A stretch of 64,000 nt of DNA from Heterotrichella gracilis (lineage: Eukaryota > Sar > Xanthophyceae > Tribonematales > Xanthonemataceae), in contig JAULBX010030152.1 in the NCBI GenBank assembly GCA_032358255.1, positions 1 to 64,000 of the forward strand. The letters run 5' to 3'. This document shows positions 7,733-63,586 of this stretch, in pieces (position 1 is the stretch's first letter; every line of letters begins with the position of its first letter). The translations under genes were made by a program, and so were the position numbers. The notes beneath the pieces are model-generated. The model ran no database searches. It saw only the letters and a list, made by a program, of their open reading frames with translations, and was not told the origin of the DNA.

Positions 7733-7900
7733 GTGGACCTCAAATGAAAAAGGGCCCACACAGATCCCCAGCAGGGTCGGTGCAGACCCGGTGGGGTTGG
7801 AAGAATGCACCCCAGGGGATGCAAGGGGTGCGGTCTCGCAATTGCGAAAACGGACAGAGTTTGCCCTACCTACGATGCAGTGGCAAACGATGGAGCACAA
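7733..7900 (-). promoter_or_regulatory. Motif promoter and structured leader of the 7732 gene
   Basis: The 20-bp motif at 7881-7900 (TTGTGCTCCATCGTTTGCCA) ends in -35 TTGCCA. The -10 CAAACT at 7858-7863 follows after 17 bp. The leader of about 120 nt contains GGGTC-N6-GACCC within a CCCC/GGGG stem, then the start-codon hairpin at 7732-7760. Regulation at transcription and translation is inferred. Confidence 0.65.
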
Positions 7901-7948
7901 AACGGGCAACTCCATCTGCGTAAGGTGCGTCGCACAGACTTTGTGGAA

Positions 7949-7991
7949 TTGGTCCGCATCGCGTGCGCAATCACAAGATTGTGTGTATTCT
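7949..7991 (+). promoter_or_regulatory. Motif promoter of the beta-barrel gene
   Basis: A weaker copy of the 20-bp motif (TTGGTCCGCATCGCGTGCGC) supplies -35 GTGCGC. The -10 TATTCT follows after 17 bp. It is divergent from the promoter at 7858-7900, and the two motif copies are 48 bp apart. Confidence 0.5.
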
Positions 7992-8041
7992 CCGCGCGCC
8001 ACGCCTCACAGGGAGGGGTGGAATATCTAGGAAATCTCTAA

Positions 8042-8668
8042 ATGAAAATGAAACTTGCCTTGATCGCCGCAGCTGCGGCTCTCTCTTTGTCCGCCCAAGC
8101 ACAGACCGGCTTCTATGTCGGCGCCGAAGGCGGTATCGCGTCGATCAAGGATCAGTCCGGTGATGTCGCGCGTTCGCTGGTGGACGAGTTCGGCGGATCG
8201 GCCACTGTGACGCAGGACGCAGGCATGGGCTTCGCTCGCATCTATGGCGGTTACCAGATCAACAAGTTCGTGGCTGCCGAGCTGGGCTACCTGAAGACCG
8301 CCGAGGCGACGATGACCTTCGTCGGCACTGGCAGCGGTGGCTACGCTGGTGATGTGGCCCTGTCGGTCTCCGGCTTTGACCTCTCCGCAGTTTTCAAGCC
8401 TTTCGAGCAGCGCGGCCTCAACGGCCTGTTCTTCCGCGCTGGCCTGACCTCCTATGAGCAGAAGCTTGTGGTCACAGCCTCGGCCAATGCCGCCACCGCG
8501 CGCGGCACTGATACCTACAGTGGCACGGGTACCATGCTGGGCGTCGGCTATGACCTGCCCGTTGGCCCCGGGCAAATTCGCTTCCAGCTGACCGCCCTGC
8601 AGAAGATTGGCGGCGAGACGGATAGCGACTCGACCACGATGAGCGCCGGCTACCGCTACGCCTTCTAA
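8042..8668 (+). CDS. Outer-membrane beta-barrel protein
   Basis: The 208-residue product has a signal peptide ending at AQA near residue 20, alternating hydrophobic strands, many Gly and aromatic residues, and a C-terminal phenylalanine (AGYRYAF), the usual signal for outer-membrane insertion. It resembles opacity-type or OmpX/OmpW-like eight-strand barrels. The gene is single, with its own promoter and terminator. Ligand or role is unknown. Confidence 0.85.
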   Translation: MKMKLALIAAAAALSLSAQAQTGFYVGAEGGIASIKDQSGDVARSLVDEFGGSATVTQDAGMGFARIYGGYQINKFVAAELGYLKTAEATMTFVGTGSGGYAGDVALSVSGFDLSAVFKPFEQRGLNGLFFRAGLTSYEQKLVVTASANAATARGTDTYSGTGTMLGVGYDLPVGPGQIRFQLTALQKIGGETDSDSTTMSAGYRYAF

Positions 8669-8691
8669 CCCGCGTACTTAGCGGGAACGTA

Positions 8692-8717
8692 AGCACGGCT
8701 GCGGCCGTGCTTTTTTT
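8692..8717 (+). terminator. Rho-independent terminator
   Basis: AGCACGGC-TGC-GGCCGTGCT followed by seven T residues ends the beta-barrel transcript. Confidence 0.9.
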
Positions 8718-8740
8718 CGCCTGTACGTTTCTTTTGGACG

Positions 8741-8772
8741 AAAAAAAACCGCCTGACCCGGAGGTCAAGCGG
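8741..8772 (-). terminator. Rho-independent terminator
   Basis: On the minus strand CCGCTTGACC / GGGTCAGGCGG is followed by eight T residues. It terminates the operon that runs leftward to 8787. Confidence 0.9.
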
Positions 8773-8786
8773 CATGGCCAGATGGC

Positions 8787-8996: not shown

Positions 8997-9018
8997 GGTC
9001 CTTCCTTTCAGTCAGTTG

Positions 9019-9327: not shown

Positions 9328-9337
9328 ACTTCGTTCG

Positions 9338-9623: not shown

Positions 9624-10022
9624 TCAGGCCGGCGCGGCCGCCATCTCAGCAATGCGTGGGGCATCGCGGAGGTGTTCGGCCAATGCTTTGGCATGACGCA
9701 GGCTGTGGTCGGCGACACGCTTAGTCACGTATTGCACGGCCTCAGCGTCGCTTGCGAAGATGTCAGCTTCGTCGTCGCGCTGGATCTGCATCAGGCCGGT
9801 GCGGTCGAAGTCGAACAGCGCCCAGCCCGTGTCCAGAAGCTCGTCCATCACGGCGTTGATGACCACCTGGCGGGCGGCCTCAATGCCAAACGGCGTTTTT
9901 GCTCCGGAACGGAAGTGGGCGTCGATTGCGCGTTCAGCTCGATCATCGAAGGCTCCGTTGTTGGCCATCGCATCAAGCGCAGCTTCGAAACGGTCCTTGA
10001 AGACAGCAGTATTTCTGCTCAT
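9624..10022 (-). CDS. Hypothetical protein, operon leader gene
   Basis: The 132-residue product is largely helical and charged, with no known motif. The ATG at 10022 sits at the foot of a hairpin that hides the AAGGA ribosome binding site. A longer in-frame extension upstream reads through the promoter and is rejected. It heads a four-gene operon of unknown function. Confidence 0.75.
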   Translation of the reverse strand: MSRNTAVFKDRFEAALDAMANNGAFDDRAERAIDAHFRSGAKTPFGIEAARQVVINAVMDELLDTGWALFDFDRTGLMQIQRDDEADIFASDAEAVQYVTKRVADHSLRHAKALAEHLRDAPRIAEMAAAPA

Positions 10023-10186
10023 GGGGATTCCTTGAAAAGGACCCCGGACAGGAACCAGCCCACCGGGCAGAGTTCGCCCGGGGCAGGTTAATGAATGCTG
10101 GCGCGATGGCCAGCGAATCGGCAAAAAGCCAAGTTCAGGTGTAATTTTCCCCTTCCGGCCCCATAGAGTCCAACGATGCCGACCAG
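10023..10186 (-). promoter_or_regulatory. Motif promoter and structured leader of the 10022 gene
   Basis: The motif CTGGTCGGCATCGTTGGACT (10167-10186) supplies the -35, and GAAAAT (10144-10149) follows after 17 bp. The leader of about 115 nt has a GC stem (CCCCGGGC / GCCCGG) and a final hairpin GGGG-TCCTT-TTC-AAGGA-AT-CCCC that ends directly at the ATG, sequestering the ribosome binding site. Confidence 0.7.
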
Positions 10187-10209: not shown

Positions 10210-10381
10210 CTGGTCGCGATCGTTTGCCACCGGCCACGGACATCCGTAACATGGGCGGGTCTTTGGCCGTGCGCCGAACTCGCCGTCCCTGTGACGGCAT
10301 CCACCTGGCCGTTCGGCCATTCATCCCTCGGGAATCCTCTTCCCGATGGGCAAGTGGGTTCCCTCTCTCTTGGAGAACCCT
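10210..10381 (+). promoter_or_regulatory. Motif promoter and structured leader of the 10382 gene
   Basis: The motif CTGGTCGCGATCGTTTGCCA (10210-10229) ends in -35 TTGCCA; TAACAT (10247-10252) follows after 17 bp. It is divergent from the 10144-10186 promoter. The leader of about 125 nt contains CGGGAATC-CTCTTCCCG and a hairpin GGGTTC (10356-10361) / GAACCC (10375-10380) that ends one base before the TTG start. Confidence 0.7.
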
Positions 10382-10657
10382 TTGAACCATCTTTTCAAAA
10401 TCACGGTGAACGGAAAGCCTGCCGGCATCACGGTCGCGCCCACCTTCCACCAGGCCTTCAAACAGGCCACCAACGCGCTGACCCGCCGTACCGCCTCGCA
10501 AGACGGCTCTGAATTTGACGGTCACCTCCAGGTGCACAACCCGGATCTGGTGAACCTCAAACTCGGCGCTGACTCACTGCTGTACTGGAGCGGCGTTGCG
10601 CTGCACGGTCTGCAACTGATCGACATCCCGACCGTCGAGGAGAAGGCCCATGCCTAA
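10382..10657 (+). CDS. Hypothetical protein, TTG start
   Basis: The 91-residue product (LNHLFKITVNGKPAGITVAP with TTG read as Met) looks like a small beta-rich fold. The TTG start is chosen because GGAG lies eight bases upstream; the ATG at 10346 has no ribosome binding site. The stop overlaps the next gene by eight bases, so the two are coupled. Function is unknown. Confidence 0.65.
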   Translation: MNHLFKITVNGKPAGITVAPTFHQAFKQATNALTRRTASQDGSEFDGHLQVHNPDLVNLKLGADSLLYWSGVALHGLQLIDIPTVEEKAHA

Positions 10658-12739: not shown

Positions 12740-12899
12740 ATGGTCGCCATCGGGTGACAAAAGCCTAAGCCGTCACTAAACTGGGCCCGTTTTGGCACTT
12801 CTGCCATTTCGCCAGCCACGCGCTGGCCTTTACCTCCCCTGCCGGGTCCTTGCTGACCCGTGTGGTCGCGGGCTCGGTCCTTTCCCAAGGAACTTCAAT
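12740..12899 (+). promoter_or_regulatory. Motif promoter and structured leader of the 12900 gene
   Basis: ATGGTCGCCATCGGGTGACA (12740-12759) is a copy of the 20-bp motif with -35 GTGACA; TAAACT (12777-12782) follows after 17 bp. The leader of about 110 nt carries CGGGTC-N6-GACCCG, the same GGGTC/GACCC hairpin seen before the 7732 gene, and a final TCCTT-TCCC-AAGGA hairpin that hides the ribosome binding site. Confidence 0.65.
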
Positions 12900-13754
12900 A
12901 TGAGTCTCGCAAAACAAGCCGCTGAATGGCTGAAATCCATCGTCTCCAACCATCTGCCCAGTACCGCTCGCCGGTACACGTGGAAGACCTTCGTGAACGA
13001 GGTTACGCATAACTCCCTCGGGGGCGTGCGTTTCCTCTCCCCCACCGAAGGCAAGGTGATCGACATGGACGATGAGTTCGTGGCCGTCAAGGAAAAGGGC
13101 TCCACTTTCGTCGTCATTGAGCGCAAGTTGATGTCGCAGGAAGTTGCCATCGGTGACAAGATCGGTCTGTCCTTCTACAAGCTCAAGCGTTTCGACGGCT
13201 TGAGCCCGGATGGCAGCGAAGATCCCGCCGTCGGTGGTATCCGCTCTTTCATGTTGACTGGCAGCCAAACCCGCATGCCTGTCACATGGGAAGGCCGGCA
13301 CGTCGACAGCATGGCCCTGGGCCCCAACGTCACGCCGACCGAAATCCGCAACCCCTACCTGCGCGACCTCATCACGCAGCTGGAGCAGATTCAGGTCCCG
13401 GGCACGCCCCGCAAACTGGTGAACATCCTCACGGATGCCAACCCGAGCAACCTGACGTTCAACGATCCGGCCGAAGAAGATTCGGCGATTGATGCGCCGG
13501 CGGTTCGCCTGGACGTGGCAACAGCCAAGTTCACCGGCCACGTTGAAATCCGTTACGACCGGGCCAGCGACACCTACACGGTGCTGTTGACCCCGGTGAT
13601 CGGTGACGCGATGACGCTGGACTGGATTCACTTCGACCAACTGGCCGAGGCGCTCCTGGACGGTATCGATGACGGCTCATGGCTCACGGCAAAGGTGACC
13701 ATGATCAAGGCGGCGCCGAAGAAGCGTGCAAGCACCGCGGCTGCCACTGCCTAA
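12900..13754 (+). CDS. Hypothetical protein of 284 residues
   Basis: The product is soluble with an N-terminal region (LPSTARRYTWKTFVNEVTHN), a beta-rich centre and an Ala/Lys-rich tail (KKRASTAAATA) that could be flexible or nucleic-acid-binding. The ATG at 12900 follows AAGGAA by eight bases. It is a single gene with promoter, structured leader and terminator. The family is not recognised. Confidence 0.8.
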   Translation: MSLAKQAAEWLKSIVSNHLPSTARRYTWKTFVNEVTHNSLGGVRFLSPTEGKVIDMDDEFVAVKEKGSTFVVIERKLMSQEVAIGDKIGLSFYKLKRFDGLSPDGSEDPAVGGIRSFMLTGSQTRMPVTWEGRHVDSMALGPNVTPTEIRNPYLRDLITQLEQIQVPGTPRKLVNILTDANPSNLTFNDPAEEDSAIDAPAVRLDVATAKFTGHVEIRYDRASDTYTVLLTPVIGDAMTLDWIHFDQLAEALLDGIDDGSWLTAKVTMIKAAPKKRASTAAATA

Positions 13755-16170: not shown

Positions 16171-16301
16171 GGTTCCTATACCGCCATACCATCTGACCTC
16201 AAAGTATGACGAGGCAACCCCTGCAGTTTAGGGGCGCTTGGCCTGGCGCGCCAGCGATGGCGACCTGTTTGGCCACCCGTGACAAGTGACTTTGCGGAAA
16301 A

Positions 16302-19320: not shown

Positions 19321-20354
19321 GCGAACATCTCCTCCTGCAGAGCCGGTTCAGGCGTGCCCTGCGGCAGCGTCCAGACCAGGTCTTCGCCACTCATCACGCA
19401 GTGCAGCAAGTAGATCTCATTCAGAGCCTTCGCTTGCGATTCAAGCTCACCGAACGTCACTGAGAAGTTCAGGTCAGTCTTGCCCAGCTTCTCGGCCACG
19501 TAGAGCAGGTTCTTCGTGCGGTAGTCCTCGCCTTCCTTCTCCACGTAGGATGAGAAGTCGATGACTGCGGCAGGATCGACCGGCAAAGCCGCCTTCGTCG
19601 CCGCGCGCAGCGCTTTGAAGTTCGCTCGGAAACTACCCGGGTGAGTCAACTGCTTTTCACCGTAGGCGGCGATAAAGCTGGAGACCACCGAGTGACCCAC
19701 TGCCCGGAACGTCCCGTCGTCCTGACGGACCAACAGGCTGTCCCCGTGGATGCGGTACATGGTGGGCGGCGTGAAGTCGAGCTTTGCGGGCTCTGGCTCG
19801 TAGGCAAACCTCATGTCAACGCTGTCCAGGTTCTGGATCTCGCTTTCCTTGAACAGGCGCCACGGACCGACGTAGACCCGGTTCTTGCTGAAGATCGTGT
19901 GCAGGACCTTGAAGTCCGCAAACAGCGGAATCTCCATGGGCCCGACATCGAGCGTCGTGGCCACAACCGGGAATCCATCTTTGCGCAGGAAATCGAGAAT
20001 GCGCGCGCGGATACCCTGGTCGGAACCCAGCGGCTTAAACGGGCCGAATTCCAGCTCGATCTTGCGATCCAGGATGGTTACCGGAGCCGACATCTCCTTG
20101 AGCCATGCGGTTGCATAGGCTTCAGGGGTCGTGGCACCACCTGAGACTTGAAGCAGACCGCCTTCTGCGCTGCTGGCCGCCCAGAAGATGTATTTGATCA
20201 CGTCTTCCAGATAGCCAATGGCACAGCAGCCCCATATGGGGAGCCGTGGGAAGGTGTTCTTGCAGTACGTCTGCTCAAAAAGAACGTACGCAGTGCGGCC
20301 TTCGGGGGTCTTGAAGGCGGCTACCTTCTTTTGGACTGAAACAGTCGAACCCAT
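19317..20354 (-). CDS. Hypothetical protein of 345 residues
   Basis: The product is soluble, with a hydrophobic N-terminal part containing two adjacent cysteines (PIWGCCAIGYLEDVIKYIFW) that could insert in a membrane or bind a cofactor. No known motif is evident. The start has AGGAG eight bases upstream, held in a 5-bp CTCCT-AGGAG hairpin. It heads a three-gene operon under a motif promoter. Confidence 0.8.
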   Translation of the reverse strand: MGSTVSVQKKVAAFKTPEGRTAYVLFEQTYCKNTFPRLPIWGCCAIGYLEDVIKYIFWAASSAEGGLLQVSGGATTPEAYATAWLKEMSAPVTILDRKIELEFGPFKPLGSDQGIRARILDFLRKDGFPVVATTLDVGPMEIPLFADFKVLHTIFSKNRVYVGPWRLFKESEIQNLDSVDMRFAYEPEPAKLDFTPPTMYRIHGDSLLVRQDDGTFRAVGHSVVSSFIAAYGEKQLTHPGSFRANFKALRAATKAALPVDPAAVIDFSSYVEKEGEDYRTKNLLYVAEKLGKTDLNFSVTFGELESQAKALNEIYLLHCVMSGEDLVWTLPQGTPEPALQEEMFA

Positions 20355-20526
20355 TGAAATACTCCTGTGAAAAGGAGCAGCCCCACCGGGGTCTGCCCCT
20401 GGTGGGATGGGTGCCAGCGAATTGCTGGCGGGAATGAATGCAGGCGTGAAAGCCCGCGTTATGGCAATGCCATGAACGGAGTGATTTTCAGGGTTTTAGG
20501 GGCGCGCGTCCAACGATGGCGACCAG
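20355..20526 (-). promoter_or_regulatory. Motif promoter and structured leader of the 20354 gene
   Basis: CTGGTCGCCATCGTTGGACG (20507-20526) supplies the -35; GAAAAT (20484-20489) follows after 17 bp. The leader of about 125 nt contains several GC hairpins (GGGGCAGACCCC, CCCCGGTGGGG, GCCAGC-AATTC-GCTGGC). Its last hairpin, CTCCT-TTTCAC-AGGAG, hides the ribosome binding site. Confidence 0.7.
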
Positions 20527-20930: not shown

Positions 20931-20961
20931 GCCCCAATTGTCCTGTATGCAGCCGCCCGTT

Positions 20962-21084
20962 TCAAAGGATGCGGACCAGGAATGCCACGATGGCGGCGGT
21001 AGCGATCACACCGCCAGCGACGAATATTGCCAAGATCCCCAGCGCCTGCAACCGGCTGCGAAGGTTAGGCTTTCGGCCGGGCAT
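20962..21084 (-). CDS. Tiny single-helix membrane protein
   Basis: This 40-residue product has a basic start (MPGRKPNLRSRLQ) and one strong transmembrane helix (ALGILAIFVAGGVIATAAIV) ending in RIL. It lies in line with two other one-helix proteins downstream, with a 31-bp gap. The reading frame is short, so confidence rests on the helix and the neighbourhood. Confidence 0.5.
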   Translation of the reverse strand: MPGRKPNLRSRLQALGILAIFVAGGVIATAAIVAFLVRIL

Positions 21085-26679: not shown

Positions 26680-26721
26680 AGTTTGCCCCAGAATTTACGA
26701 TTGGCAAGTGATGCCGCCCAG
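26680..26721 (-). promoter_or_regulatory. Motif promoter of the 26669 operon
   Basis: CTGGGCGGCATCACTTGCCA (26702-26721) differs from the consensus of the 20-bp motif at one core base. It ends in -35 TTGCCA, and CAAACT (26680-26685) follows after 16 bp. Confidence 0.7.
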
Positions 26722-27221: not shown

Positions 27222-27792
27222 CTCGTCTCACTGTTAGATTCCCGTATTTCCTGATTTGCCTCTTAGAGGCGAGTAGCGGGAGCCGATTTGGGGAGCTGGT
27301 CGGCATCATTTGCCAACCCGTTTACGGGGGAGCAAAATTCTCCCACCTTGGAAGTCCGCCCTATGGGCAGGCGATCAGGGTGCCTCCTCAGTCGAGGCAT
27401 GTACCCATCAAATCCACTGCGGGAACCCCCGCCTCAACTCAAGTTGAACCCCCACGCGCTGAGACATATTTGTCCTTTGCCCGTGGACGCCTGACGCTCC
27501 AGTACGGAGCGCAGTCTGAGCCTCTAAGTCCCGGATCTGCCGATTGCGCGTCCTGGGCATCTGATTGTGCGCTTGCACTCCCGGCCGGTCCCTTTCGGGC
27601 GTCCCGAAGCAAAGCGCGCGTTGCATCGCCGGCCCTGATCAGCCGTCAAGTCGCAACGTGAGTTCCGCGCTCCGTACCCAGACTTCCTGTGGTCTACGGA
27701 GCGCACCTTTTATTCCAATCGCCCATTTCTGTTTTTCGGGAACGGTCTGTTGCGCTCGTTGCGCCAGCCGGTCCCACCGTAAGGAGTCTCCT
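27222..27792 (+). promoter_or_regulatory. Motif promoter and exceptionally long structured leader
   Basis: CTGGTCGGCATCATTTGCCA (27296-27315) is the best consensus match on the plus strand, and CAAAAT (27333-27338) follows after 17 bp. The remaining 454 nt before the ATG at 27793 contain no convincing gene. They fold into strong stems, including GCGCTCCGT / ACGGAGCGC near 27667-27706 and CCGGTCCC-TTTC-GGGCG near 27590. This could be a riboregulator or host a small RNA. Confidence 0.6.
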
Positions 27793-30583: not shown

Positions 30584-30915
30584 TTGCGCCGCGTTGCCCA
30601 TGTCGTACACTAGGGGCTCGTTTGATGCTTGCATCATTCGCAGTCCTTGTGACTGCAACCATTAGGTAGCTGGGCATGCCCTTCTACCGACACCAGAAAT
30701 GGTGGATTGCTGCTTGCTGGCCATGTGCCAGCAGCCACGGCTTCTCGGCGCTTAGGTCAATTTTTGGTTCACTCCCGAAATGGACTCTCCTAACGCCGCG
30801 CCGGGAAATCGGCAGTCATGGAGCTCCTGGCGGAGCCGGTGCGAGTCGTCCTTTGTGTGCTTTCTATCGAGAGTGCAGAAGGGGCGACTTGCCCGGAACC
30901 TGATAGGAGAGTCCC
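30584..30915 (+). promoter_or_regulatory. Promoter and long structured leader of the 30916 gene
   Basis: TTGCGC (30584-30589) and TACACT (30606-30611) are 16 bp apart. The leader of about 300 nt has no gene. It contains GCTTGCTGGC / GCCAGCAGCC and a long-range pairing: GGACTCTCCTA at 30782-30792 is fully complementary to TAGGAGAGTCC at 30904-30914. The second segment includes the ribosome binding site and ends one base before the ATG. Confidence 0.6.
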
Positions 30916-32623: not shown

Positions 32624-34519
32624 TTAGGACTTCACGTCCGGGCCACCATCTTTCGTCACTACGCCAAAGGCGTTGGCAAAGGCCTCCTTGAGCGCCCTGC
32701 CATCGATCAGCCCAGCCTCACGGATGTGCTTGGCCAGGTCGTCCCACGTTTGCGGGCTTTCCAGGTCGGCTGCAGCAAACCGCGGTTGGCTGTACGACTC
32801 GCGATGCTGGTTCCAGGAGCTGGTCCCATAGACCAAAGCCAGCTGGCCCGCATTCGCGTCACGAAGACTGCTGCGCACGTTGCTCAGATCGCTCTTGAGC
32901 AGTGTGGCAAGCGTCGCCCCCAGGATCCCGCTTACCGCGGAATCCCACTCAGTGAGAAGGCTCTCCCGCTCCGAGTCATCGTAGTTGTCGTGCTCGTCGC
33001 TGAAGTCGCTGTAGAAGTCGATCGGTTCGTCAGCCGCGCGGTTGTTGCGCGTGACAAGACAGACCGTCCCTTCATTCTCGTCGGTGTAGGCAATCCAGTC
33101 GGTTGTGATCTTGTCTTCGAGTCCGAAGGCAGGATCCACATTGCTGGTTACCTTGACAGTTACCGAGTCCACCACTTTCATGACGACCTCGTACTGACCG
33201 ATGTAGAACACTTCCTTGCCGATCACTTCGCTGTGCGTGACATTGACATCCAGATCTTGCCAGTTCACCAAGGAATCGAAGATCCAGTGGTTCGCAGTAA
33301 GCCCCGTTCCATCGCCCAGCGAGTAGATCTTCTCACGCTGCATCATCTTGAGCAGCACGCCGTCATTCTCATGTGCTTCGTAGCTGCTTCCAGCTGCGCC
33401 GCTCCAGATTTTCACCTGGCCGCTGAGAACTTCTTCTCTGGTGACCAGGGAAGCGAGATCATGCGCTGCGCCGAAGGCTTCATCATCGCGGTAGTGAACA
33501 GCGTCCACCTTCTGCAATGTCCAGCCCGGTAGATAGGGGATGTCATCCATCAGGTTCATCGCACCGTAGTCCTGGCAGGTGTTCCAGTACTTGAGAACGA
33601 ATTCCGTCTGAGGCATCTGAGCCTTCTTTGAAGCGAGAACTTGCACCACCAGGGCGCGGTGCGTAGCTCTGAGCCCTGAAAGCTGCTTATCACCGTCATA
33701 CAGGGCCTTGCGGTCCGGCATCTGGGCAACGAAGCGGGTGCTGTCGAGGTGCGCCACCCGCAGCTCGTCGCCGTAGATGGTGTTCTCAATCGGCAATCCC
33801 TGCAGGTAGAACGCCCAGTCAGAGAAGCTACGCCTCGGCTGTGGGTTCGGCTCCCCGGTGGTGATGAGCAGATCATGGATGTGACCATACTCGGTCGCCA
33901 CCGTCGTGATGTTGTCCATCGCGTGGGGTCGCTCATAGTCCACGCCGTTGAGGGCGACAGGGATGGGGAAACCCCGGCTGAAGCCTTTCAGGCGATTGTC
34001 GATGTTGGTGTCTTTGACAGCCTTCGGCATGCCATTGATACTTGTCTCCAGCAGGTCCTTGTTCAGCCCTTGCAGGATGATCGAGGTTCCCTTGCGGTAC
34101 AACGTCCCCTTGAGATCGATCTTGCGCTTGTTGACGATGTCATCCAGCGTGGCTTCGAGGGTGTAGCCATTCGAGATGATGGTGACCTTCTCGCATGCAT
34201 AGAACACGGAGAAGAAGCCCATTCCAAACGGCTTTTCCGACAGAGTCGTTTGCTCTTCCCAGTCGCTTTCGCACAAGGCGATCAGCGTGGAGAAGTCCTG
34301 AATGCCGCGGCCGTCATCCACCACGGTCAGCTCGCGCTTTTCCGTGTCGAGGGTGAAGTCAATGCGGGAGGCGCCGGCGCGGCGCGCATTCTGCATCAGC
34401 TCGCCCAGCATGGAAAAGCTGGAGGCAAACAGATGCTTGAGCGAGCTCAGCAGGCGCTTGTCGTTGACCGTGGCCACGACGTGGGTGGTCTCGAGGTTGG
34501 TTTCGGTTTGATTGCTCAT
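32624..34519 (-). CDS. GHKL (Hsp90/MutL-type) ATPase
   Basis: The 631-residue product has an N-terminal ATP-binding Bergerat fold: Glu40 and Asn44 in MLGELMQNARRAGA, the DxGxG box VVDDGRGI at 67-73, and the lid KPFGMGFFSVFYA at 96-108. These are the residues that bind and hydrolyse ATP in Hsp90, MutL and MORC proteins. The remaining 450 residues are unfamiliar, with no histidine-kinase or nuclease motif seen. It is a single gene under a motif promoter with an attenuator-like leader. It might be a chaperone, a DNA-clamp ATPase or a defence component. Confidence 0.85.
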   Translation of the reverse strand: MSNQTETNLETTHVVATVNDKRLLSSLKHLFASSFSMLGELMQNARRAGASRIDFTLDTEKRELTVVDDGRGIQDFSTLIALCESDWEEQTTLSEKPFGMGFFSVFYACEKVTIISNGYTLEATLDDIVNKRKIDLKGTLYRKGTSIILQGLNKDLLETSINGMPKAVKDTNIDNRLKGFSRGFPIPVALNGVDYERPHAMDNITTVATEYGHIHDLLITTGEPNPQPRRSFSDWAFYLQGLPIENTIYGDELRVAHLDSTRFVAQMPDRKALYDGDKQLSGLRATHRALVVQVLASKKAQMPQTEFVLKYWNTCQDYGAMNLMDDIPYLPGWTLQKVDAVHYRDDEAFGAAHDLASLVTREEVLSGQVKIWSGAAGSSYEAHENDGVLLKMMQREKIYSLGDGTGLTANHWIFDSLVNWQDLDVNVTHSEVIGKEVFYIGQYEVVMKVVDSVTVKVTSNVDPAFGLEDKITTDWIAYTDENEGTVCLVTRNNRAADEPIDFYSDFSDEHDNYDDSERESLLTEWDSAVSGILGATLATLLKSDLSNVRSSLRDANAGQLALVYGTSSWNQHRESYSQPRFAAADLESPQTWDDLAKHIREAGLIDGRALKEAFANAFGVVTKDGGPDVKS

Positions 34520-34695
34520 GTGGTTCCAAAAAAAATGCGGGAACCACTAGCCCCATCGGGAAGTGATTCCCGCGTGGGTTCGGCCTGGTTGGCCAGATTG
34601 AGTTATGCCGTCAGGATGACGGCGGTACCGGCGATATGCCAATAACGGGGAGATTTTCCCGGATTTCAGCACAAGTGGCAATTGATCGAGAACAG
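34520..34695 (-). promoter_or_regulatory. Motif promoter and attenuator-like leader of the GHKL ATPase gene
   Basis: CTGTTCTCGATCAATTGCCA (34676-34695) supplies -35 TTGCCA; GAAAAT (34653-34658) follows after 17 bp. The leader ends with an 11-bp hairpin (34538-34572) and eight T residues, an intrinsic terminator just before the start codon. The competing hairpin GTGGTTCC / GGAACCAC (34520-34547) ends at the ATG and uses the same strand, so the two folds exclude each other. Confidence 0.7.
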
Positions 34696-36586: not shown

Positions 36587-37561
36587 CTATTCGTGCGTCG
36601 CAATCGCCTTGAGCTTGGAGGTCTGTTCCACGACCCACTCGCGCAGGCTGCGCGTGGTCACACCAGACGCGACGGCCTCTTTCCAGACTTCCTGGGTGTA
36701 AACCGTCCGAGCGGCGTTTCTGGAGGTCATGATGACTTCCATCGGCCCCTTGGGGACGACCAGCAAGTTGGCCTCCAGTTCGTCGGCCGCGCGCTGCATC
36801 ATCTCCTGGCTGATCACCACCTCGTCGCCCATGAAGCGGAAGGCGAAGTCCTCAATGCCATTGCCCAGACGCCACAAAGCGTCGGAGCCTGCGCGCAACT
36901 CGGTGAGCAGCTCTTCGAACAGCGCATCATAGGCATCGAGCTCTTGGCCTGCAAAGCAGCCAACGCTGATGACTGCTCCAGGAGATGCCTGTACGCGGTA
37001 CAAGCCATCGTCAGGGAAGCTGGTCTTGAGTTCGCGAGCCATTTCGAGTTGCACGGCGGCGCTCGGGAAAGGCCCGACCAGGATCGGAGTCACGTCTTCC
37101 TCCGTGTGGAGCACGAAGTACTGCCGTTGGACCTCGGGAGCTGCTTCAGCCGCGGCCAAAGCATCTTCATCCTTCTGCAGCCGCTGAACCTCGGCCACCA
37201 GGTAGTGGGCCAGGGTACGTGCCAGTGCCTTTTGCTGATCTGCCTCAGGGTACTCGCCTGCAACTTGGCTGTTCCTGGTCCCGAGGTAGGACTCGACTTC
37301 AAACTTGCAGTTGGCCACGGCGGTCTTGACGATGCGCGCGAGGACTTCGTTGAGTTCGTCAATCGCGTCTGCTTGCTCCTCGGTGTGCCCGAAAAGCGTA
37401 GGCACTTCGGCGGCGTATTCTGCACCTTCAGAACGCAAGTCCCAGACATGATCGTCTTGGTACATCGCCCCGATCCGCACTTCACCCGTTACCGAGTGCA
37501 GCATGACAACCAGCTGAGCTGGGAGGCGGCGCGCAAGGTGTGCGGTGGAGATTGATTTCAT
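36587..37561 (-). CDS. Hypothetical protein of 324 residues
   Basis: The product is soluble, with an N-terminal domain (LPAQLVVMLHSVTGEVRIGA), a helical middle and a C-terminal mixed region. No motif is recognised. It has the same promoter type and a near-identical leader element as the GHKL ATPase gene, so the two are likely co-regulated. It ends at a terminator and is a single gene. Confidence 0.8.
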   Translation of the reverse strand: MKSISTAHLARRLPAQLVVMLHSVTGEVRIGAMYQDDHVWDLRSEGAEYAAEVPTLFGHTEEQADAIDELNEVLARIVKTAVANCKFEVESYLGTRNSQVAGEYPEADQQKALARTLAHYLVAEVQRLQKDEDALAAAEAAPEVQRQYFVLHTEEDVTPILVGPFPSAAVQLEMARELKTSFPDDGLYRVQASPGAVISVGCFAGQELDAYDALFEELLTELRAGSDALWRLGNGIEDFAFRFMGDEVVISQEMMQRAADELEANLLVVPKGPMEVIMTSRNAARTVYTQEVWKEAVASGVTTRSLREWVVEQTSKLKAIATHE

Positions 37562-37718
37562 AGTGGTCTTTCATATATAGGGACCACTGCCCATCGGGCG
37601 CGTAGTCCCGATGGGTGGAAAAGGTGAATGTCGACACAAGGTCGGCGATACCGGCGTAATGCCAATAGCGAGCGAATGGTAAGGTTTTGCCCAGGTGCTG
37701 GCAAACGATGAACACCAT
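37562..37718 (-). promoter_or_regulatory. Motif promoter and structured leader of the 37561 gene
   Basis: ATGGTGTTCATCGTTTGCCA (37699-37718) supplies -35 TTGCCA; TACCAT (37676-37681) follows after 17 bp. The 25-bp leader element at 37643-37667 matches 34620-34644 at all but three positions. A perfect 9-bp stem CCCATCGGG / CCCGATGGG lies at 37590-37615. The hairpin AGTGGTC / GACCACT at 37562-37588 ends directly at the ATG. Confidence 0.7.
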
Positions 37719-37961: not shown

Positions 37962-38261
37962 TCAGTGCACCGTGCGGGTGAACAGGGCAGGCTGGGCCTG
38001 CTTGCGCTCACCGTAGAGGAACACCTCGAGCTGCTCACGCACCCATCCCGAAACGGAAGGAGAGTTGAGCGCCTGAACCAAGACTGCGCGGTGACCCGCG
38101 TCCATGACGGCATCGAACAGCGCTTGCACGCCATTGCGACCACCCGTACGGGCTGCACTGTTGATGGTGCTGCCCGCTTCTTCGGCCATGGATTTCACGA
38201 GGAAAGGCATGTGCTCGCAGAACAGGTTGTACTTGTGTTCATACAGGGGACTCAGACTCAT
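37962..38261 (-). CDS. Hypothetical protein
   Basis: The 99-residue product (MSLSPLYEHKYNLFCEHMPF) is helical and soluble. The ATG at 38261 has GGAG eight bases upstream; a GTG two codons earlier is also possible. It lies upstream of the tRNA-like gene on the same strand and may share its transcript. Function is unknown. Confidence 0.7.
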   Translation of the reverse strand: MSLSPLYEHKYNLFCEHMPFLVKSMAEEAGSTINSAARTGGRNGVQALFDAVMDAGHRAVLVQALNSPSVSGWVREQLEVFLYGERKQAQPALFTRTVH

Positions 38262-38425
38262 TTTCACTCTCCATTAAAGGGAATGATGGGTCCAAGTCTC
38301 CCCAAAGGGAAACTTGGTTTCCCATCGGGGTTAATAATGCAGCCACAAGGGCTACGGATTCGCCAGTAGCGAAAGCGAACGAATTACACCATGTCGAAAA
38401 CAAGGCGTCAAAAGATCGAGACCAG
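38262..38425 (-). promoter_or_regulatory. Motif promoter and structured leader of the 38261 gene
   Basis: CTGGTCTCGATCTTTTGACG (38406-38425) supplies -35 TTGACG; TGTAAT (38383-38388) follows after 17 bp. The leader of about 115 nt includes GGGAAAC-CAA-GTTTCCC and a small CATT / AATG hairpin beside the ribosome binding site. Confidence 0.6.
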
Positions 38426-43214: not shown

Positions 43215-43658
43215 ATGACCAATTTTTCCGGGATGTTCCGCAAAGAGATTGAGCGCATTTCCCGCAAGACGACGCGCGCTGAGCTGGGCATTTTGAAGAG
43301 GGCCGCAACTGCACATCGCAGCGAGATCGCCGCTCTCAAGCGCCAGGTGGCAGAGTTGCAGCGCACGCTGAAAGCGGTTTCAAAAACGGCGTCCAGGTCC
43401 AGCAAGGAATCTTTGGAGCAAGCCAAGGGCCAGCGATTCAGCGCCAAGGGGTTTGCAAAGCTTCGCCAGCGCCTGGGCCTGAGTGCTCAGGATATGGGCC
43501 TGCTGGTCGGGGCTTCCGCCCTTTCGGTCTACAAGTGGGAGAACCCGGATAGCGGCGTGCGGCCGCGTGCACAGTTCATCGCGTCGATTGCATCCTGCCG
43601 CAAGCTGGGTAAGCGCGAGGCTGATCGTCGCTTGGAAGTCCTCCGGGCGGCCGCCTAA
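43215..43658 (+). CDS. XRE-type helix-turn-helix regulator
   Basis: The 147-residue product has a coiled N-terminal half and, at about residues 85-130, a Cro/CI-type helix-turn-helix (FAKLRQRLGLSAQDMGLLVG, then ALSVYKWENPD). The start at 43215 is preceded by AGAGG; an ATG 60 bases earlier lacks a ribosome binding site. It is divergent from radA and might regulate it. Confidence 0.8.
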   Translation: MTNFSGMFRKEIERISRKTTRAELGILKRAATAHRSEIAALKRQVAELQRTLKAVSKTASRSSKESLEQAKGQRFSAKGFAKLRQRLGLSAQDMGLLVGASALSVYKWENPDSGVRPRAQFIASIASCRKLGKREADRRLEVLRAAA

Positions 43659-57658: not shown

Positions 57659-58072
57659 TTAGCAAGGAATGTCCCAGATACTTTCGGCCGATGCAGGGAA
57701 TCTGCGTTCGACCTCACTACGAACCACGGAGCGAATCATCCCGGCGGTTTTGCGCCATTGTTCGCTTGCGTGGGCCTTTTCCTTCGCGTGGATGAGCACG
57801 GCCAGGTGGCGAGAAAACACCAACCCCCCGACGAACCATGCCAGTGCGAAGACTTTAGTCACCCACGCGTTGTAGTTGAAGCCCAGGGCCGCGGCAACGA
57901 CACCACCGTAAAAGGCAGCGTGCAGCACGAACTCCTTGGTCCACTCCAAAGCGGGGATGCTCTTGTGTTCGAAGTCGAACACGCCCGAGAAGTACTTGTC
58001 GACCTCCTCGTGATAAACAAGGTAGGCGAACAAGCTAATCACCAGGACGGTGAGAAGCAGTTGAATGGTCAT
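57659..58072 (-). CDS. Membrane protein with three helices
   Basis: The 137-residue product has hydrophobic segments at about residues 3-20, 50-66 and 70-86. Its ribosome binding site AAAGGAGG is very strong and begins in a CCTTTC-TTTTC-GAAAGG hairpin. A perfect GGGCGAT-TTC-ATCGCCC hairpin lies further up in the leader. The family is unknown. Confidence 0.7.
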   Translation of the reverse strand: MTIQLLLTVLVISLFAYLVYHEEVDKYFSGVFDFEHKSIPALEWTKEFVLHAAFYGGVVAAALGFNYNAWVTKVFALAWFVGGLVFSRHLAVLIHAKEKAHASEQWRKTAGMIRSVVRSEVERRFPASAESIWDIPC

Positions 58073-58255
58073 ACGACCTCCTTTCGAAAAGAAAGGGCGA
58101 TCGCATTGCCTTGTGGGCGATGAAATCGCCCAGTTGGCTTGAAAATGCTGGCGGGTTGCCAACAGACTCAGACGTAAAGCCTGAATGTGAGTCCAATTCT
58201 ATGGATGGCAGGCCTGGCTGTCATGCGATGGAGCACAGCCGGCTCCGGCGCTGGC

Positions 58256-58809: not shown

Positions 58810-58849
58810 GATACCGTCGAAAGCACGTTTGTCCAGTGATGCCGACCAG
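58808..58849 (-). promoter_or_regulatory. Motif promoter facing left
   Basis: CTGGTCGGCATCACTGGACA (58830-58849) supplies -35 TGGACA; TATCTT (58808-58813) follows after 16 bp. It is divergent from the motif promoter at 58863, and only 13 bp separate the two motif copies. Confidence 0.65.
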
Positions 58850-58862: not shown

Positions 58863-59009
58863 TTGTTTTCCATCGTTTGCCTGTCGAGAAGCGTTCCAGG
58901 ACAATCGGCAGGTTTTCGCTTTTGCGAGTCCGCTGCCCGTTTGTGGCGGCATCACTCAACCCTTGGGGGCCTGCCCCTCTTGGGGCTGGTTTCCACACCT
59001 GGAGTAACC
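58863..59009 (+). promoter_or_regulatory. Motif promoter and structured leader of the 59010 gene
   Basis: TTGTTTTCCATCGTTTGCCT (58863-58882) supplies -35 TTGCCT; GACAAT (58900-58905) follows after 17 bp. The leader of about 100 nt ends in GGTT-TCCA-CACC-TGGA-GT-AACC (58988-59009), a hairpin that hides GGAG and ends at the ATG. Confidence 0.65.
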
Positions 59010-59333
59010 ATGAATCCGACCAAGGCACCTTCGCTCGAAGAGATTGTCGCGGCCATCAAATCCGACGTCCTTCAGCGCATGCGTAAGGGACAAATCCCCC
59101 ATGACGTGGCGTCTTTCTCTGCACTGCACGACCACTGCGACGCCAACTGTCTGGGGGGCATGTGCGAGGCCAAGATGTTCGACGTGATCTGGGCCAGCTT
59201 TGCCCCGCTCACACTGGGCGACGGCATGCCGCAAGGCATGCTCGATCTGCTGAACAAGGCCCAAGATGCCGTGCATGAGTGGCTGGCATCGGGCCAGGCT
59301 CATGCAGAGGCGATGGAGTCCAGCCCCAGCTGA
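59010..59333 (+). CDS. Hypothetical helical protein
   Basis: The 107-residue product (MNPTKAPSLEEIVAAIKSDV) is helical and soluble, with three cysteines in the middle that could bind metal (HDHCDANCLGGMC). It is a single gene with its own promoter, leader and terminator. The family is unknown. Confidence 0.7.
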   Translation: MNPTKAPSLEEIVAAIKSDVLQRMRKGQIPHDVASFSALHDHCDANCLGGMCEAKMFDVIWASFAPLTLGDGMPQGMLDLLNKAQDAVHEWLASGQAHAEAMESSPS

Positions 59334-60498: not shown

Positions 60499-60530
60499 AT
60501 GAAGTGTCCGTGAAGTTGAGGTCCAGCTCA

Positions 60531-61124
60531 ATGGATGCCGGCCAGATGCCGAGTTCGATGTTCTACGCTGGGATCGGGTCGCGAGAAACTCCAGAGCCTG
60601 TTTTGGATTTCATGCGCCGTGTCGCTGCGCGCCTTTCCAAGCGCGGGTACATCCTTCGATCAGGCGCTGCCGACGGGGCTGATACAGCCTTTGAGCAGGG
60701 GTGTGACTCTGTTGGCGGCCAAAAGGAGATCTGGCTTCCTTGGCGCGGCTTCAACGAGCACCCCGATACCGGGCTCTACCCGGGTGAAGCGCACGCGGCC
60801 GCGGCCAAAGATGTGCACCCGATCTGGGACCGCCTGAGCCAGGGGCAGCGTAAGCTGCACGCCCGCAATGTGGGCCAGGTCCTGGGGGCTGGGCTGGATG
60901 TGCCGGTTGCATTCGTGCTGTGCTGGACCCCGGACGGCTGTGAGGGCGAGGAATCTCGCAGCGTCGCCACTGGAGGTACAGGCACCGCCATTGTTCTGGC
61001 CAGCAGGCGCGGAATTCCTGTCTTCAACCTATTTAATCGGGATGCCCTGGACCGGCTGGCGGCGAAGGTTCTTGATGGGGCCAACGACCACTTTCCAGCG
61101 CCCTTACCAGGTCCGAAAGCGTAG
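60531..61124 (+). CDS. SLOG/DprA-like Rossmann-fold protein
   Basis: The 197-residue product shows the SLOG superfamily signature near its start (FYAGIGSRETPEPVLDFMRR, then GYILRSGAADGADTAFEQGC) and a later Gly-rich loop (VATGGTGTAIVLA). SLOG proteins bind nucleotides or nucleotide-derived ligands; related ones occur in phages and defence systems. The ATG at 60531 has GAGG upstream; a TTG at 60495 would overlap the gene before. Its 3-prime end overlaps the convergent regulator gene by 92 bp. Confidence 0.8.
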   Translation: MDAGQMPSSMFYAGIGSRETPEPVLDFMRRVAARLSKRGYILRSGAADGADTAFEQGCDSVGGQKEIWLPWRGFNEHPDTGLYPGEAHAAAAKDVHPIWDRLSQGQRKLHARNVGQVLGAGLDVPVAFVLCWTPDGCEGEESRSVATGGTGTAIVLASRRGIPVFNLFNRDALDRLAAKVLDGANDHFPAPLPGPKA

Positions 61125-61500: not shown

Positions 61501-61686
61501 CGGTTAATGCTATGGGAGGACGCTGTGCTTGTACAGAGGACACAGATGGACTCATCACAGCTTGGCTCCAGGTGCCGAGTCGGCAATTAAAGTCGTAAAC
61601 AGCCCCTACGAAGATGTGCGGCCTGCACTGTAAGTGCCTGCTCATCTTCTACCCCCTGAGGCCCGAAGTTTGCGTTGGGTTCCCGG
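61501..61686. other. Gap with no recognised gene
   Basis: Apart from the likely promoter and operator of the regulator gene near 61501-61545, I see no gene, repeat or terminator here. Confidence 0.5.
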
Positions 61687-62427
61687 TTACTCGGTGTCGC
61701 CAAGTTGAACTTGACGCTTGACCATGAGGGTCATGGCCGTGTCCGCGTGCATGGAGAAGTCCTTGGCGCGTTTCGCCTTCTTGCGGATCTCAAACACTCC
61801 GGGCTCGTGTTCGCACACCAGCCCCAAGCCATCGGGCACTTCAGCCTTGTCGATCAGACCGGCCGGGCACGCGTAGTAGACCGCTTCAGCCAGCTCTGCG
61901 TACGCCTGGCGCTTTTGTGGCTTGGCCAGGTCGGCAAGGAAGTCGGCGCGGCTGACCTTGACCTCGTAGATGGCTGGCGCTGCGTTTCTTACCTTGAGCT
62001 GGGGCAGGCAGGCGAAGACATCGGGGCGCACCACGCCCCAGGTGCGGGGCTGAGTCCAGTCCGGATTGGCGAACTCGACGTTCTCCCACGTGTGCATGCC
62101 TTTTGAGCGTAGGTAGGTGGCCAGGCGCGTGCCCAGTTCGTGATGGGGGCTTTGTGACTGGATCTGGGCCTGGCGCGTCTCGTTCATGTGCACCACGCCC
62201 AACTGCGTCACTGTGAGCACAGCTGAGGCGCTGCTGCGCTGCTCCACTGTCTGCACCATCCCATGCACCGTGAGGCCCAGGTCAATGCCCTTGAGCTCGC
62301 TCAGGTAGACCGGGCGGCCGTGGCCCCAGATCCAGCGCAAGCGGCTGGTGTGCGCCTTGGTCAGGCGCGGCGGGGTTGGGCAATCCAATGCAGCGCCAGC
62401 GGGGATGTCTGCCTGCGCTGGAGTCAT
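61687..62427 (-). CDS. MmcB-like putative DNA repair nuclease
   Basis: The 246-residue product has, in its C-terminal half, a pattern like MmcB/COG5321 (VVRPDVFACLP, then AIYEVKVSRADFLADLAKPQ, then LAEAVYYACPAGLI). The Asp, Glu and Lys there fit a PD-(D/E)XK nuclease core. The first 130 residues look like a winged-helix DNA-binding domain. The start overlaps the stop of the gene before it (ATGA). Confidence 0.78.
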   Translation of the reverse strand: MTPAQADIPAGAALDCPTPPRLTKAHTSRLRWIWGHGRPVYLSELKGIDLGLTVHGMVQTVEQRSSASAVLTVTQLGVVHMNETRQAQIQSQSPHHELGTRLATYLRSKGMHTWENVEFANPDWTQPRTWGVVRPDVFACLPQLKVRNAAPAIYEVKVSRADFLADLAKPQKRQAYAELAEAVYYACPAGLIDKAEVPDGLGLVCEHEPGVFEIRKKAKRAKDFSMHADTAMTLMVKRQVQLGDTE

Positions 62428-62918
62428 GCTGGGAGGGCCAGTGTGCGGGGCATTTCGCACAGCAGCATGGCGCCCTCTTCCGGGTGCTCAGTCAGGTGCA
62501 CGCGCATTCCGAAAGTGACTTGTCCGTTGTCATCGATCTCGCCCACGCTCAGTGTCACGTTGCTCGTGTCCGGGTCATCACCGATGAACTGGCGCAGCAG
62601 CTGCGCGGATTCGCCTGTCAGCGCGAAGGTGGGCATTCGGGCGGGGGCTGGCGCTGCCTGCGCGGTGCCCTCCTCGCGGATCCACAGCATCATGGCGATG
62701 GTGCCCACGTCCAGGGGGTCGCCCTTGGCGATGTGTTCGGCCAGCATGGACTGAAGGCGGCCATTGGGACAGTCGGACTTGTCGTGCCAGCCCCCGCGCC
62801 CTTTGGCGCGTGAGCGGGCGAGCTTGGCCTTCATTGCCGCGGCAAAGCGGTCGACGGCCATGTCATCGGGATGGGGGTGATTGGCAGCCGAGCTGTCGGT
62901 GGCGGTGGCATCTGGCAT
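62424..62918 (-). CDS. Phage-type hypothetical protein
   Basis: The 164-residue product contains MKAKLARSRAKGRGGWHDKS followed by GRLQSMLAEHIAKGDPLDVG and TIAMMLWI. This segment is also found at the start of phage dATP/dGTP pyrophosphohydrolase-related proteins. The C-terminal half is beta-rich. GGAGAG precedes the ATG. Enzymatic activity is not claimed, since catalytic residues of that family are not visible. Confidence 0.7.
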   Translation of the reverse strand: MPDATATDSSAANHPHPDDMAVDRFAAAMKAKLARSRAKGRGGWHDKSDCPNGRLQSMLAEHIAKGDPLDVGTIAMMLWIREEGTAQAAPAPARMPTFALTGESAQLLRQFIGDDPDTSNVTLSVGEIDDNGQVTFGMRVHLTEHPEEGAMLLCEMPRTLALPA

Positions 62919-62961
62919 GAGGACTCTCCGTGGAAGTAACGCCGAAACCGGCGACCTCGGT

Positions 62962-63003
62962 AGCTTCTCATGCCTCCCTGAAAAGTCAAACGATGCGGGC
63001 CAA
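62962..63003 (-). promoter_or_regulatory. Motif promoter of the 62918 operon
   Basis: TTGGCCCGCATCGTTTGACT (62984-63003) supplies -35 TTGACT; GAAGCT (62962-62967) follows after 16 bp, preceded by TGA. The sequence TGA-GAAGCT is repeated at 63545. Confidence 0.65.
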
Positions 63004-63017
63004 TACCGCCGGCTCGT

Positions 63018-63488
63018 TCAGGCAGCTTCGCGCAGGGCGATTTTGATGCGCTGATCCCAGTGCGCAGCCGTGGCGTGGTCTTCGAAGTTGCCGAGAACCA
63101 CCTTGGTCATGTCCTTGTCGAACGTCTCGATGACGATGCGTTCGTTGTCGTGCCGGCCATTCTTCTCGGTCCACTTGTGCTGCCATGAGTCGATGTTGGC
63201 GAACTTGAGGACCTGGATGTTGCCGTCATAGTCGAAGGTGATGAAGCGCTTGCCGGCTTCGTCCAGGATGAAGCTGCGGCCATCGCAGATTACCGCTTCC
63301 TGATTGGCGAGGCTGAACTTCGCCCGGACATCGGGCAGCACGCGTCGCATCAGCACCTTGGCGCCATGCGTGGACAGCGAGTCAAGGAAGATGATGCCGA
63401 ACGGCATCGTGCCGATGCACAGGGCGGTACCGAGGATCTTGAAGGGCCAGCCGAACCAGGTTTCGGAAACGAAGAGAGTCTTGATCAT
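63018..63488 (-). CDS. Membrane-anchored hypothetical protein
   Basis: The 156-residue product has an N-terminal hydrophobic segment (GTALCIGTMPFGIIFLDSL) and a soluble, beta-rich C-terminal domain. It is a single gene with its own motif promoter. The family is not recognised. Confidence 0.7.
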   Translation of the reverse strand: MIKTLFVSETWFGWPFKILGTALCIGTMPFGIIFLDSLSTHGAKVLMRRVLPDVRAKFSLANQEAVICDGRSFILDEAGKRFITFDYDGNIQVLKFANIDSWQHKWTEKNGRHDNERIVIETFDKDMTKVVLGNFEDHATAAHWDQRIKIALREAA

Positions 63489-63544
63489 TTGAGTTAGATG
63501 AAGAGTGGTTGAAAAAATTGCGCGCCACTTGTGGCGACCGAGTT

Positions 63545-63586
63545 AGCTTCTCACGGGTCTTTGTTTTGTCAAATGATGGCGACCAG
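63545..63586 (-). promoter_or_regulatory. Motif promoter of the 63488 gene
   Basis: CTGGTCGCCATCATTTGACA (63567-63586) is the best full match to the 20-bp consensus in the window; GAAGCT (63545-63550) follows after 16 bp, preceded by TGA. A second GGTCGCCA lies directly downstream of the -10. Confidence 0.75.

Follow-up and report, generated by a model that had tools for sequence, protein, structure and literature searches.

Plasmid-encoded control of many backbone promoters is known from the KorA and KorB proteins of IncP-1, whose operators are palindromic, and bacterial attenuators such as those of pT181 repC and the erm leaders have, ahead of a start codon, mutually exclusive helices of which one carries a U-tract. 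Repeated, hairpin-rich promoter regions of the Frpo/ssi kind occur on conjugative plasmids, according to the part of that account available to us (PMC11541004). The available sections of the report on p576, a Bacillus plasmid of the pLS20 family (clade II), describe a repressor, Reg, an operator adjoining the -35 box of a strong promoter, and four such promoters; a ribbon-helix-helix protein binds the operator, which is a dual TTATCCC heptamer, and in the element EGeRS2 two short inverted repeats are said to prolong RNA half-life (PMC8708921). Here we describe a putative promoter-leader cassette in a stretch of DNA (the window) that spans bases 1-64000 of C760, a contig of 184,274 bp from an assembly that totals 68.5 Mb in 903 contigs. 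A sequence-only reading of the window had reported a 20-bp motif embedded in the -35 region of at least 16 promoters. It had overlooked a structured RNA leader of about 110 nucleotides (nt), which is predicted behind about half of the motif promoters.

As far as the available sections of the p576 report allow the comparison, its establishment regulon is the closest precedent for the C760 cassette. In both cases an operator, putative in C760, lies adjacent to the -35 box at several promoters of one plasmid (41 sites in a fixed register in C760), and inverted repeats stand between promoter and gene (hairpins HP1 and HP2, present behind roughly half of the C760 motifs). C760 differs in having about 40 promoters rather than four, an operator logo of TGKTCnnnATC instead of a dual TTATCCC, and a leader with competing helices and a U-tract, which those sections do not describe for p576; the hosts of p576 are Bacillus. 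Against this precedent, what appears to be new is the larger system, the different operator and the added competing helices. The leaders resemble attenuators in their mutually exclusive helices, U-tract and start codon, but unlike pT181 repC and erm there are about 22 of them behind one promoter type, with HP1 and HP2 in common and leader-specific segments A, B and C. As with KorA and KorB, many backbone promoters of one plasmid are presumed to be under plasmid-encoded control, whereas the C760 motif is asymmetric, abuts the -35 box and in many copies is accompanied by leader RNA. We consider it fairly probable, from the comparisons below, that C760 carries a replicon-wide cassette in which a plasmid-regulated promoter is coupled to an attenuator-type leader.

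All 16 listed motif copies were found at the given positions and strands, and TG at positions 2-3 and ATC at positions 10-12 are invariant in 16/16, as is G17. The -10 hexamer said to follow each copy is present at 17-bp spacing but is not perfect, with A39 in 14/16 and T43 in 12/16 of these sites, and each in 37 of the 41 sites described next. A matrix made from the 16 window sites together with their -10 was used to scan the first 184,000 of the 184,274 bases at a threshold of 16 bits. This gave 41 sites, 20 of them in the window and 21 in the remaining 120 kb, which had contributed nothing to the matrix, as against 0 in the reversed C760 sequence and 1 in each of three shuffles. All 41 lie outside the genes predicted by a purpose-written gene caller (218 genes, 85% coding). 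The sequence-only reading placed every copy upstream of a gene start, but two of the 16 have none close by: measured from the -10, the next predicted start is 269 nt off in one and 454 nt in the other, and 29-133 nt off in the remaining 14. In the 41-site logo, TGKTCnnnATCnnTTGMC, 17 bp, TAnnAT, the motif is asymmetric and overlaps the -35, as the sequence-only reading had proposed; judged by this logo, it is the upstream part of a predicted sigma-70-type promoter.

Across the assembly the motif was concentrated on C760, which held 6/7 matches at one mismatch or fewer and 10/20 at two, whereas totals at up to three mismatches (90 and 112) were no higher than in the control (100 and 114). Contig C772 of the assembly has a further one-mismatch copy (91725-91743), which scores 22.5 bits with the full matrix.

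At 68.5 Mb the assembly exceeds what a single bacterium would account for, and C760 is therefore probably bacterial DNA inside a larger, perhaps eukaryotic, assembly. It encodes PRTRC ThiF, ParB, F and a ParM-like D, Prok_Ub, and VirB3-like, UmuC, DnaB and primase-like proteins. In a profile scan of C760 proteins, PRTRC ThiF (349.6 bits against a cut-off of 144.75), ParB (647.2 against 278.6), F (159.1 against 58.4) and Prok_Ub (86.7 against 25) exceeded their cut-offs, and PRTRC_D (189.6 against 214.8) and PRTRC_E (24.5 against 26) fell below. With ThiF, ParB, F and Prok_Ub above cut-off and D below, C760 belongs to the PRTRC plasmid family. Among annotated plasmids, two backbone proteins matched best to the large Comamonadaceae plasmids of Polaromonas JS666, Hydrogenophaga PBL-H3 and BPS33, and many C760 backbone genes are common to these three. 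The presence of such a plasmid-like bacterial contig points to a mixed assembly or to a host other than a lone bacterium.

A strict motif pattern run over a genome collection matched 32 stretches, about the chance expectation; as this was a single strict pattern, diverged relatives may have been missed. Three of the 32 stretches, all from Burkholderiales, had further good sites close by. Follow-up of these three and of three others revealed clusters of sites above 11 bits on plasmid-like contigs of Burkholderiales bacterium ULC146bin1 (G001, 28 sites), Polaromonas AER18D-145 (G002, 18), a near-duplicate of the latter (G003, 10) and Caenimonas sedimenti (G005, 8), in stretches chosen for holding matches; a few low scorers are perhaps chance. 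The reversed control gave 0 sites in 11/11 blocks. Every match at two mismatches or fewer fell on the cluster contigs in G001 and G002 (13 and 6), and in G005 one of six lay on another, unexamined contig. The contigs of two further genomes (G004 and G006) followed up from pattern matches held no cluster. In viral contigs a looser pattern had single matches in 19 stretches, one of which gave a second, weak match with the matrix; there were no clusters. The promoter register is constant at the 41 C760 places and on the contigs of the four related genomes, two of which are near-duplicates.

The leader begins with HP1 at the predicted 5′ end, followed by HP2 and then by segments A, B, C and D up to the start codon. 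Of the 41 sites on C760, 22 show the full arrangement by eye and 22 by covariance model, with 18 common to both. HP1 begins at frame position ~51-54, a few nt past the predicted start. HP2, a few nt further on, is a 6-bp stem of variable sequence with a loop near CNNGU; in the 34 of 61 sequences with 5-nt loops the preference was C-[TC]-N-G-T (27, 28, -, 23 and 24 of 34). These 61, out of 95, were preselected for pairing, so pair counts in them alone are no test. An automatic hairpin search reached -12 kcal at 47% of 95 sites and in 6% of shuffles. Folding was also stronger in leaders than in other 5′ regions (-0.41 versus -0.30 kcal/nt, p 1e-9). The near-duplicate G003 was excluded from the hairpin searches, from the work with model R1, and from the other-site terminator counts and swap test given below.

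Alignment of the leaders by sequence only was unsuccessful. A covariance model (R1) built from 7 ungapped sequences yielded 34 matches, its seeds among them, at E<=0.05 in 718 kb. Their alignment, which is fitted to the model and so biased toward structure, had 99.7% paired cells, 96 double-change cells versus 24 in shuffles, and a covariation of 0.797 compared with 0.177 when shuffled and 0.04-0.07 when slid. Model R2 gave 23 matches at E<0.01 on C760, partly its training data, and 22 of these were at motif sites. On untrained records at E<=0.1 it found 19 in JS666, 14 in PBL-H3, 7 in BPS33, 5 in T118 and 0 in pB1A; a locus search gave one match in pB1A (E 1.3e-4). JS666 and T118 are among the related Comamonadaceae plasmids on which the model thus places the leader. 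At single loci, 5/8 leader matches in JS666 and 4/5 in PBL-H3 lay 121-163 and 123-149 nt, respectively, before a gene in the public annotation. With stricter filters (E<=1e-5), the leader was present in 4/299 family genomes and 3/398 phylum genomes, both including the query genome and one with coordinates equal to PBL-H3. Like the Rfam leader families these are structured leaders upstream of genes, but no leader in the window reached any gathering score in Rfam 15, where only a tRNA did, and five other leader-rich loci matched no family at gathering score. Sub-threshold Rfam matches around two leaders were ~21 bits or less, the tRNA aside. A literature search returned no paper evidently on this promoter-leader element.

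The promoter regions of C760 are repeated and hairpin-rich, as are Frpo/ssi regions in the part of that account available to us, and C760 carries conjugation-type genes. The hairpins lie close to the promoters, and 33/41 sites share one orientation. These features would suit single-stranded DNA promoters, in which the hairpins act in transferred single-stranded DNA and not in RNA. We regard this as highly improbable. The -35 and -10 lie outside the hairpins, which are downstream of the start site, and sites occur on both strands. When 22 sites were folded as single-stranded DNA with one shuffle each, -35 pairing was 0.57 versus 0.51 shuffled and -10 pairing 0.44 versus 0.50; with neither box more paired than in shuffles, the folding does not support this explanation.

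A second explanation starts from the p576 layout, in which, in the sections at hand, an operator at -35, a strong promoter and two inverted repeats occur together (PMC8708921). C760 would then carry an establishment regulon with a plain repressor, whose strong promoters burst after transfer and whose hairpins just stabilise mRNA, as in EGeRS2. HP1 starts close to the predicted 5′ end, a few nt away, and no motif site occurs between 108.4 and 141.5 kb of C760, the region holding the VirB3-like gene; both fit such a regulon. Stabilising hairpins, however, do not need the leader-specific complementarity and U-tract described next, and leaders in JS666 and T118 occur without the operator. On balance this explanation seems unlikely.

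Segment A, the 5′ arm of hairpin HP3, can pair either with its own 3′ arm B or with a similar downstream segment C. In orthologous leaders C also pairs with D, the segment holding the Shine-Dalgarno (SD) sequence and AUG. In a swap test, A was delimited by its pairing with B only, and the duplex it forms with the downstream segment of its own leader was compared with the duplexes it forms with those of other leaders in the same replicon. The leader's own A:C was stronger than the swapped one in 6/6 replicons tested: C760 (-11.1 versus -8.6, p 5e-5, n=22), G001 (p 5e-5, n=26 of 28), G002 (p 0.001, n=17 of 18), G005 (p 0.007, n=8), JS666 (p 1e-4, n=18) and PBL-H3 (p 3.5e-4, n=12). The same procedure had no effect on other C760 genes (p 0.50, n=98 of 123; p 0.72, n=43 of 46). 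C:D was likewise own-specific in C760 leaders (p 5e-5, n=21). The leaders are predicted to form two mutually exclusive helices, A:B and A:C, that share A.

A:C often lies upstream of a U-rich tract. Terminator-like stems, defined as stems below -8 kcal with at least 4 T in the 6 bases afterwards, occurred in 14/22 C760 leaders as compared with 7/123 controls and 3% of shuffles, and in 13/54 other motif sites, 8/18 JS666 leaders and 4/12 PBL-H3 leaders, with 1-3% in shuffles. A also pairs inside the loop in 11/14, 11/13, 8/8 and 3/4 of these, respectively; loop shuffles do so in about half or more, so this count alone is weak.

Alternatively, the leaders could serve at the 5′ end in stabilisation, processing or protein binding and have spread by duplication, the relation among A, B and C being a by-product. 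Tens of copies per replicon agree with this. Their stem sequences vary while the pairing is preserved, the orthologous leaders keep their layout before four genes whose products share 33-71% identity across plasmids, and the swap test favours the leader's own A:C; together these make the alternative quite improbable.

The leaders were used to align promoters in the related plasmids (18/19 model matches in JS666 and 11/14 in PBL-H3; the terminator and swap tests used 18 and 12). The 11 PBL-H3 promoters had TGGCC-n-GATYGG before TTGM in unchanged register, and the 18 JS666 promoters had no operator. TGGnC was suggested by eye in 7 BPS33 promoters, and no operator was seen by eye in 5 T118 promoters. 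The relatives were read as contig stretches, BPS33 and T118 in part, and absences there are no proof. Because JS666 and T118 have the leader without the motif and PBL-H3 has an altered motif, the predicted RNA leader has a wider distribution than the DNA motif, which differs between lineages. This change of motif suggests plasmid-encoded regulators of changing specificity.

Promoter or leader was found preferentially at orthologs of promoter-bearing C760 genes. The proportions for promoter-bearing and other genes were 9/14 versus 3/70 in G001, 12/14 versus 1/65 in G002, 7/8 versus 0/49 in G003, 4/6 versus 0/55 in G005, 5/10 versus 0/60 in BPS33 and 6/18 versus 2/79 in JS666; in the part of T118 that was read they were 0/3 and 0/10. 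The primase-like gene has promoter or leader in all seven relatives where the gene was found, and in the ortholog table the ParM-like gene has it in two of six.

The proposal that one replicon-encoded regulator controls a large regulon appears likely, because the motif overlaps the -35, precedes genes, clusters on plasmid-like contigs and generally accompanies the same genes in relatives. A weak candidate, by its distribution, is an XRE-type helix-turn-helix protein of 147 aa at 43215..43658 (+) of the window, with a match to HTH_31 below cut-off. It has homologs in G001, G002, G003, G005, PBL-H3 and BPS33, a JS666 version with a changed recognition helix, and none in T118 or pB1A, which fits the operator pattern. 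Counting against it, homologs in G001, G002, G003 and G005 are on additional contigs too, the BPS33 and G001 proteins have a common helix though their operators seem different, and the matrix scan gave no motif before the gene in C760. PRTRC ParB is under a motif promoter in C760 and relatives, yet it is present in JS666 as well. The protein of gene 12900-13754 was dropped as regulator, as operator-free T118 has it too. No further convincing helix-turn-helix was found among the proteins scanned, part of the 218 predicted genes.

Whether such a regulator would repress or activate is a separate point. If the start lies 7 nt past the -10, the motif centre would be near -42, and TG and ATC are nearly invariant beside the -35, as might be expected of a class II activator site. 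The operator-free JS666 promoters, moreover, have a better -10 (4.6 versus 3.8 of 6), as if needing no help. The C760 -35, by contrast, is already good (4.5/6) and that of JS666 weaker (3.1/6), a weak comparison in which matrix and model selection inflate both sides. We weakly favour repression from these sequence features, and an activator site is possible but somewhat doubtful.

In the cassette reading, transcription would start from a sigma-70-like core in which TGKTCnnnATC abuts and overlaps TTGMC, followed by 17 bp and TAnnAT. The transcript would begin with HP1 and HP2 and continue through A-B-C-D to the SD sequence and AUG, with A:B, A:C and C:D possible. A plasmid-encoded DNA-binding protein would sit on the operator, and the leader would be an attenuator that flips between A:B plus C:D and A:C and in this way decides whether transcription terminates ahead of the gene, whether the start codon is accessible, or both. 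A:C pairing with the polymerase still on the U-tract would stop transcription, and A:C formed later would free D. HP1 may also shield the 5′ end, and the common HP2 loop could, at a guess, be a docking site. The outcome would be coordinated control of the primase, ParM-like PRTRC_D, PRTRC ParB and F, along with a large number of small genes of unknown function. More tentatively, these leaders might amount to a replicon-wide RNA attenuation code, in which dozens of genes per plasmid each carry their own version of one leader with a common HP1/HP2 reader, the DNA operator evolving separately in each lineage and the RNA layer being older and shared.

Several observations weigh against the cassette. 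By eye, 19/41 motif sites are without the full leader, and transcription starts are predictions from sequence. The terminator criterion is loose and 8/22 leaders still fail it; a 5-in-6 T tract occurs in just 9/22, and a few of the 14 terminator-like stems cannot be assigned clearly to A:C. A small own-specificity of C:D was seen in intergenic controls as well (p 0.017). SD accessibility was 0.48 in leaders and 0.44 in other genes (p 0.22, n=21 and 123), and with the two equal, simple SD occlusion finds no support; only the AUG was somewhat more paired in leaders (0.33 versus 0.46, p 0.04). The two layers are separable, as the operator-free leaders of JS666 and T118 demonstrate, and PBL-H3 orthologs show the gene association only weakly (3/16 versus 1/80).

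Within the window, the first motif (7881..7900, -; 32.3 bits) precedes a -10 and structured leader (7730..7864, -) that runs to the ATG of gene 7424-7732(-) and includes a terminator-like stem of -12.9 kcal. Its divergent partner (7949..7968, +) has a short 5′ region with no full leader before the OMP-like gene 8042-8668(+). A second divergent pair consists of 10167..10186 (-; 36.3 bits), with -10 and leader of gene 9624-10022(-) at 10020..10150 (-), recognised by eye, covariance model and terminator search, and 10210..10229 (+; 36.8 bits), with -10 and leader at 10246..10388 (+); predicted gene 10346-10657(+) begins inside the latter leader, and its start codon is uncertain. The motif at 12740..12759 (+; 28.7 bits) is followed by the -10 and leader (12776..12902, +) of the conserved gene 12900-13754(+), again recognised by all three approaches. 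Orthologs of this gene have the promoter in G002 and G003 but not in G001, PBL-H3 or BPS33. Its product (C760 12900-13754) is a 284-aa protein that matches KfrB below the cut-off, has 50 homologs and recurs on these plasmids, T118 included.

The matrix added four window sites to the listed 16, at 16248 (-), 20960 (-), 58219 (-) and 60526 (-). Two are weak, 16248..16267 (17.1 bits, no clear leader) and 60526..60545 (16.0 bits, no leader), and may be chance matches, because each of the three shuffles gave one; this is likely for the second. The site at 20960..20979 (26.6 bits) has no full leader, and that at 58219..58238 (22.4 bits) precedes the -10 and leader of gene 57659-58072(-) at 58070..58202 (-; model E 0.009). 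Among the listed sites, 20507..20526 (-; 33.1 bits) is followed by the -10 and leader of gene 19317-20354(-) at 20352..20490 (-), recognised by eye, covariance model and terminator search. The site at 26702..26721 (-; 28.3 bits) has no full leader, and the top-scoring 27296..27315 (+; 39.0 bits) is the one whose next predicted start is 454 nt off. A leader-like element with no matrix call lies at 30606..30666 (+; model R2, E 4.4e-5), and in front of it is a possible degenerate operator, TGGATCGCTTGCG.

The motif at 34676..34695 (-; 34.5 bits) is followed by the -10 and leader of the HATPase gene 32624-34519(-) at 34517..34659 (-), in which A:C is followed by ATTTTTTTT. That at 36465..36484 (-; 28.8 bits) has a short 5′ region. 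Site 37699..37718 (-; 27.9 bits) precedes the -10 and leader of gene 36587-37561(-) at 37559..37682 (-), with no terminator-like stem, and site 38406..38425 (-; 28.5 bits) precedes those of gene 37962-38261(-) at 38259..38389 (-), an R1 seed. Orthologs of gene 37962-38261 have a leader also in G002 and JS666, and none was found in G001, PBL-H3 or BPS33. A tRNA-Ser(UGA) gene at 37790-37864 (-) lies between this leader-bearing gene and the promoter at 37699. A third divergent pair comprises 58830..58849 (-; 22.1 bits), where no leader was found, and 58863..58882 (+; 32.1 bits), with -10 and leader of gene 59010-59333(+) at 58899..59012 (+) and a terminator-like stem with a poor T-tract. The last two sites are 62984..63003 (-; 26.3 bits), with HP1 only and then the start of 62424-62918(-), and 63567..63586 (-; 34.0 bits), followed by 63018-63488(-), with a 5′ hairpin by eye and none in the automatic search.

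Other features were noted on the contig. The window encodes a PAS-GGDEF-EAL protein (44703-46829, -) and a protein with a PilV-like shufflon N-terminal region (49590-50855, +), and C760 146873-149104 (-) an adenosylcobalamin-dependent ribonucleotide reductase-like protein under the family cut-off. The ParM-like PRTRC_D gene (C760 88526, +) has a short 5′ region, which in C760 and G002 holds HP1 only. Upstream of this gene in JS666 and BPS33 are palindromic repeats (GGACAG..CTGTCC and TGGCCCA..TGGGCC), possibly centromere-like.

If the cassette reading is true, a family of large environmental plasmids would coordinate tens of genes through one promoter-leader cassette. The cassette would then offer a direct handle on unknown PRTRC genes, several of which would be under shared control. 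It would also be a test case for regulator and operator co-evolution, PBL-H3 keeping the register while altering the letters, and the leaders would form an RNA family with many natural paralogs, whose switch rules could be read from covariation.

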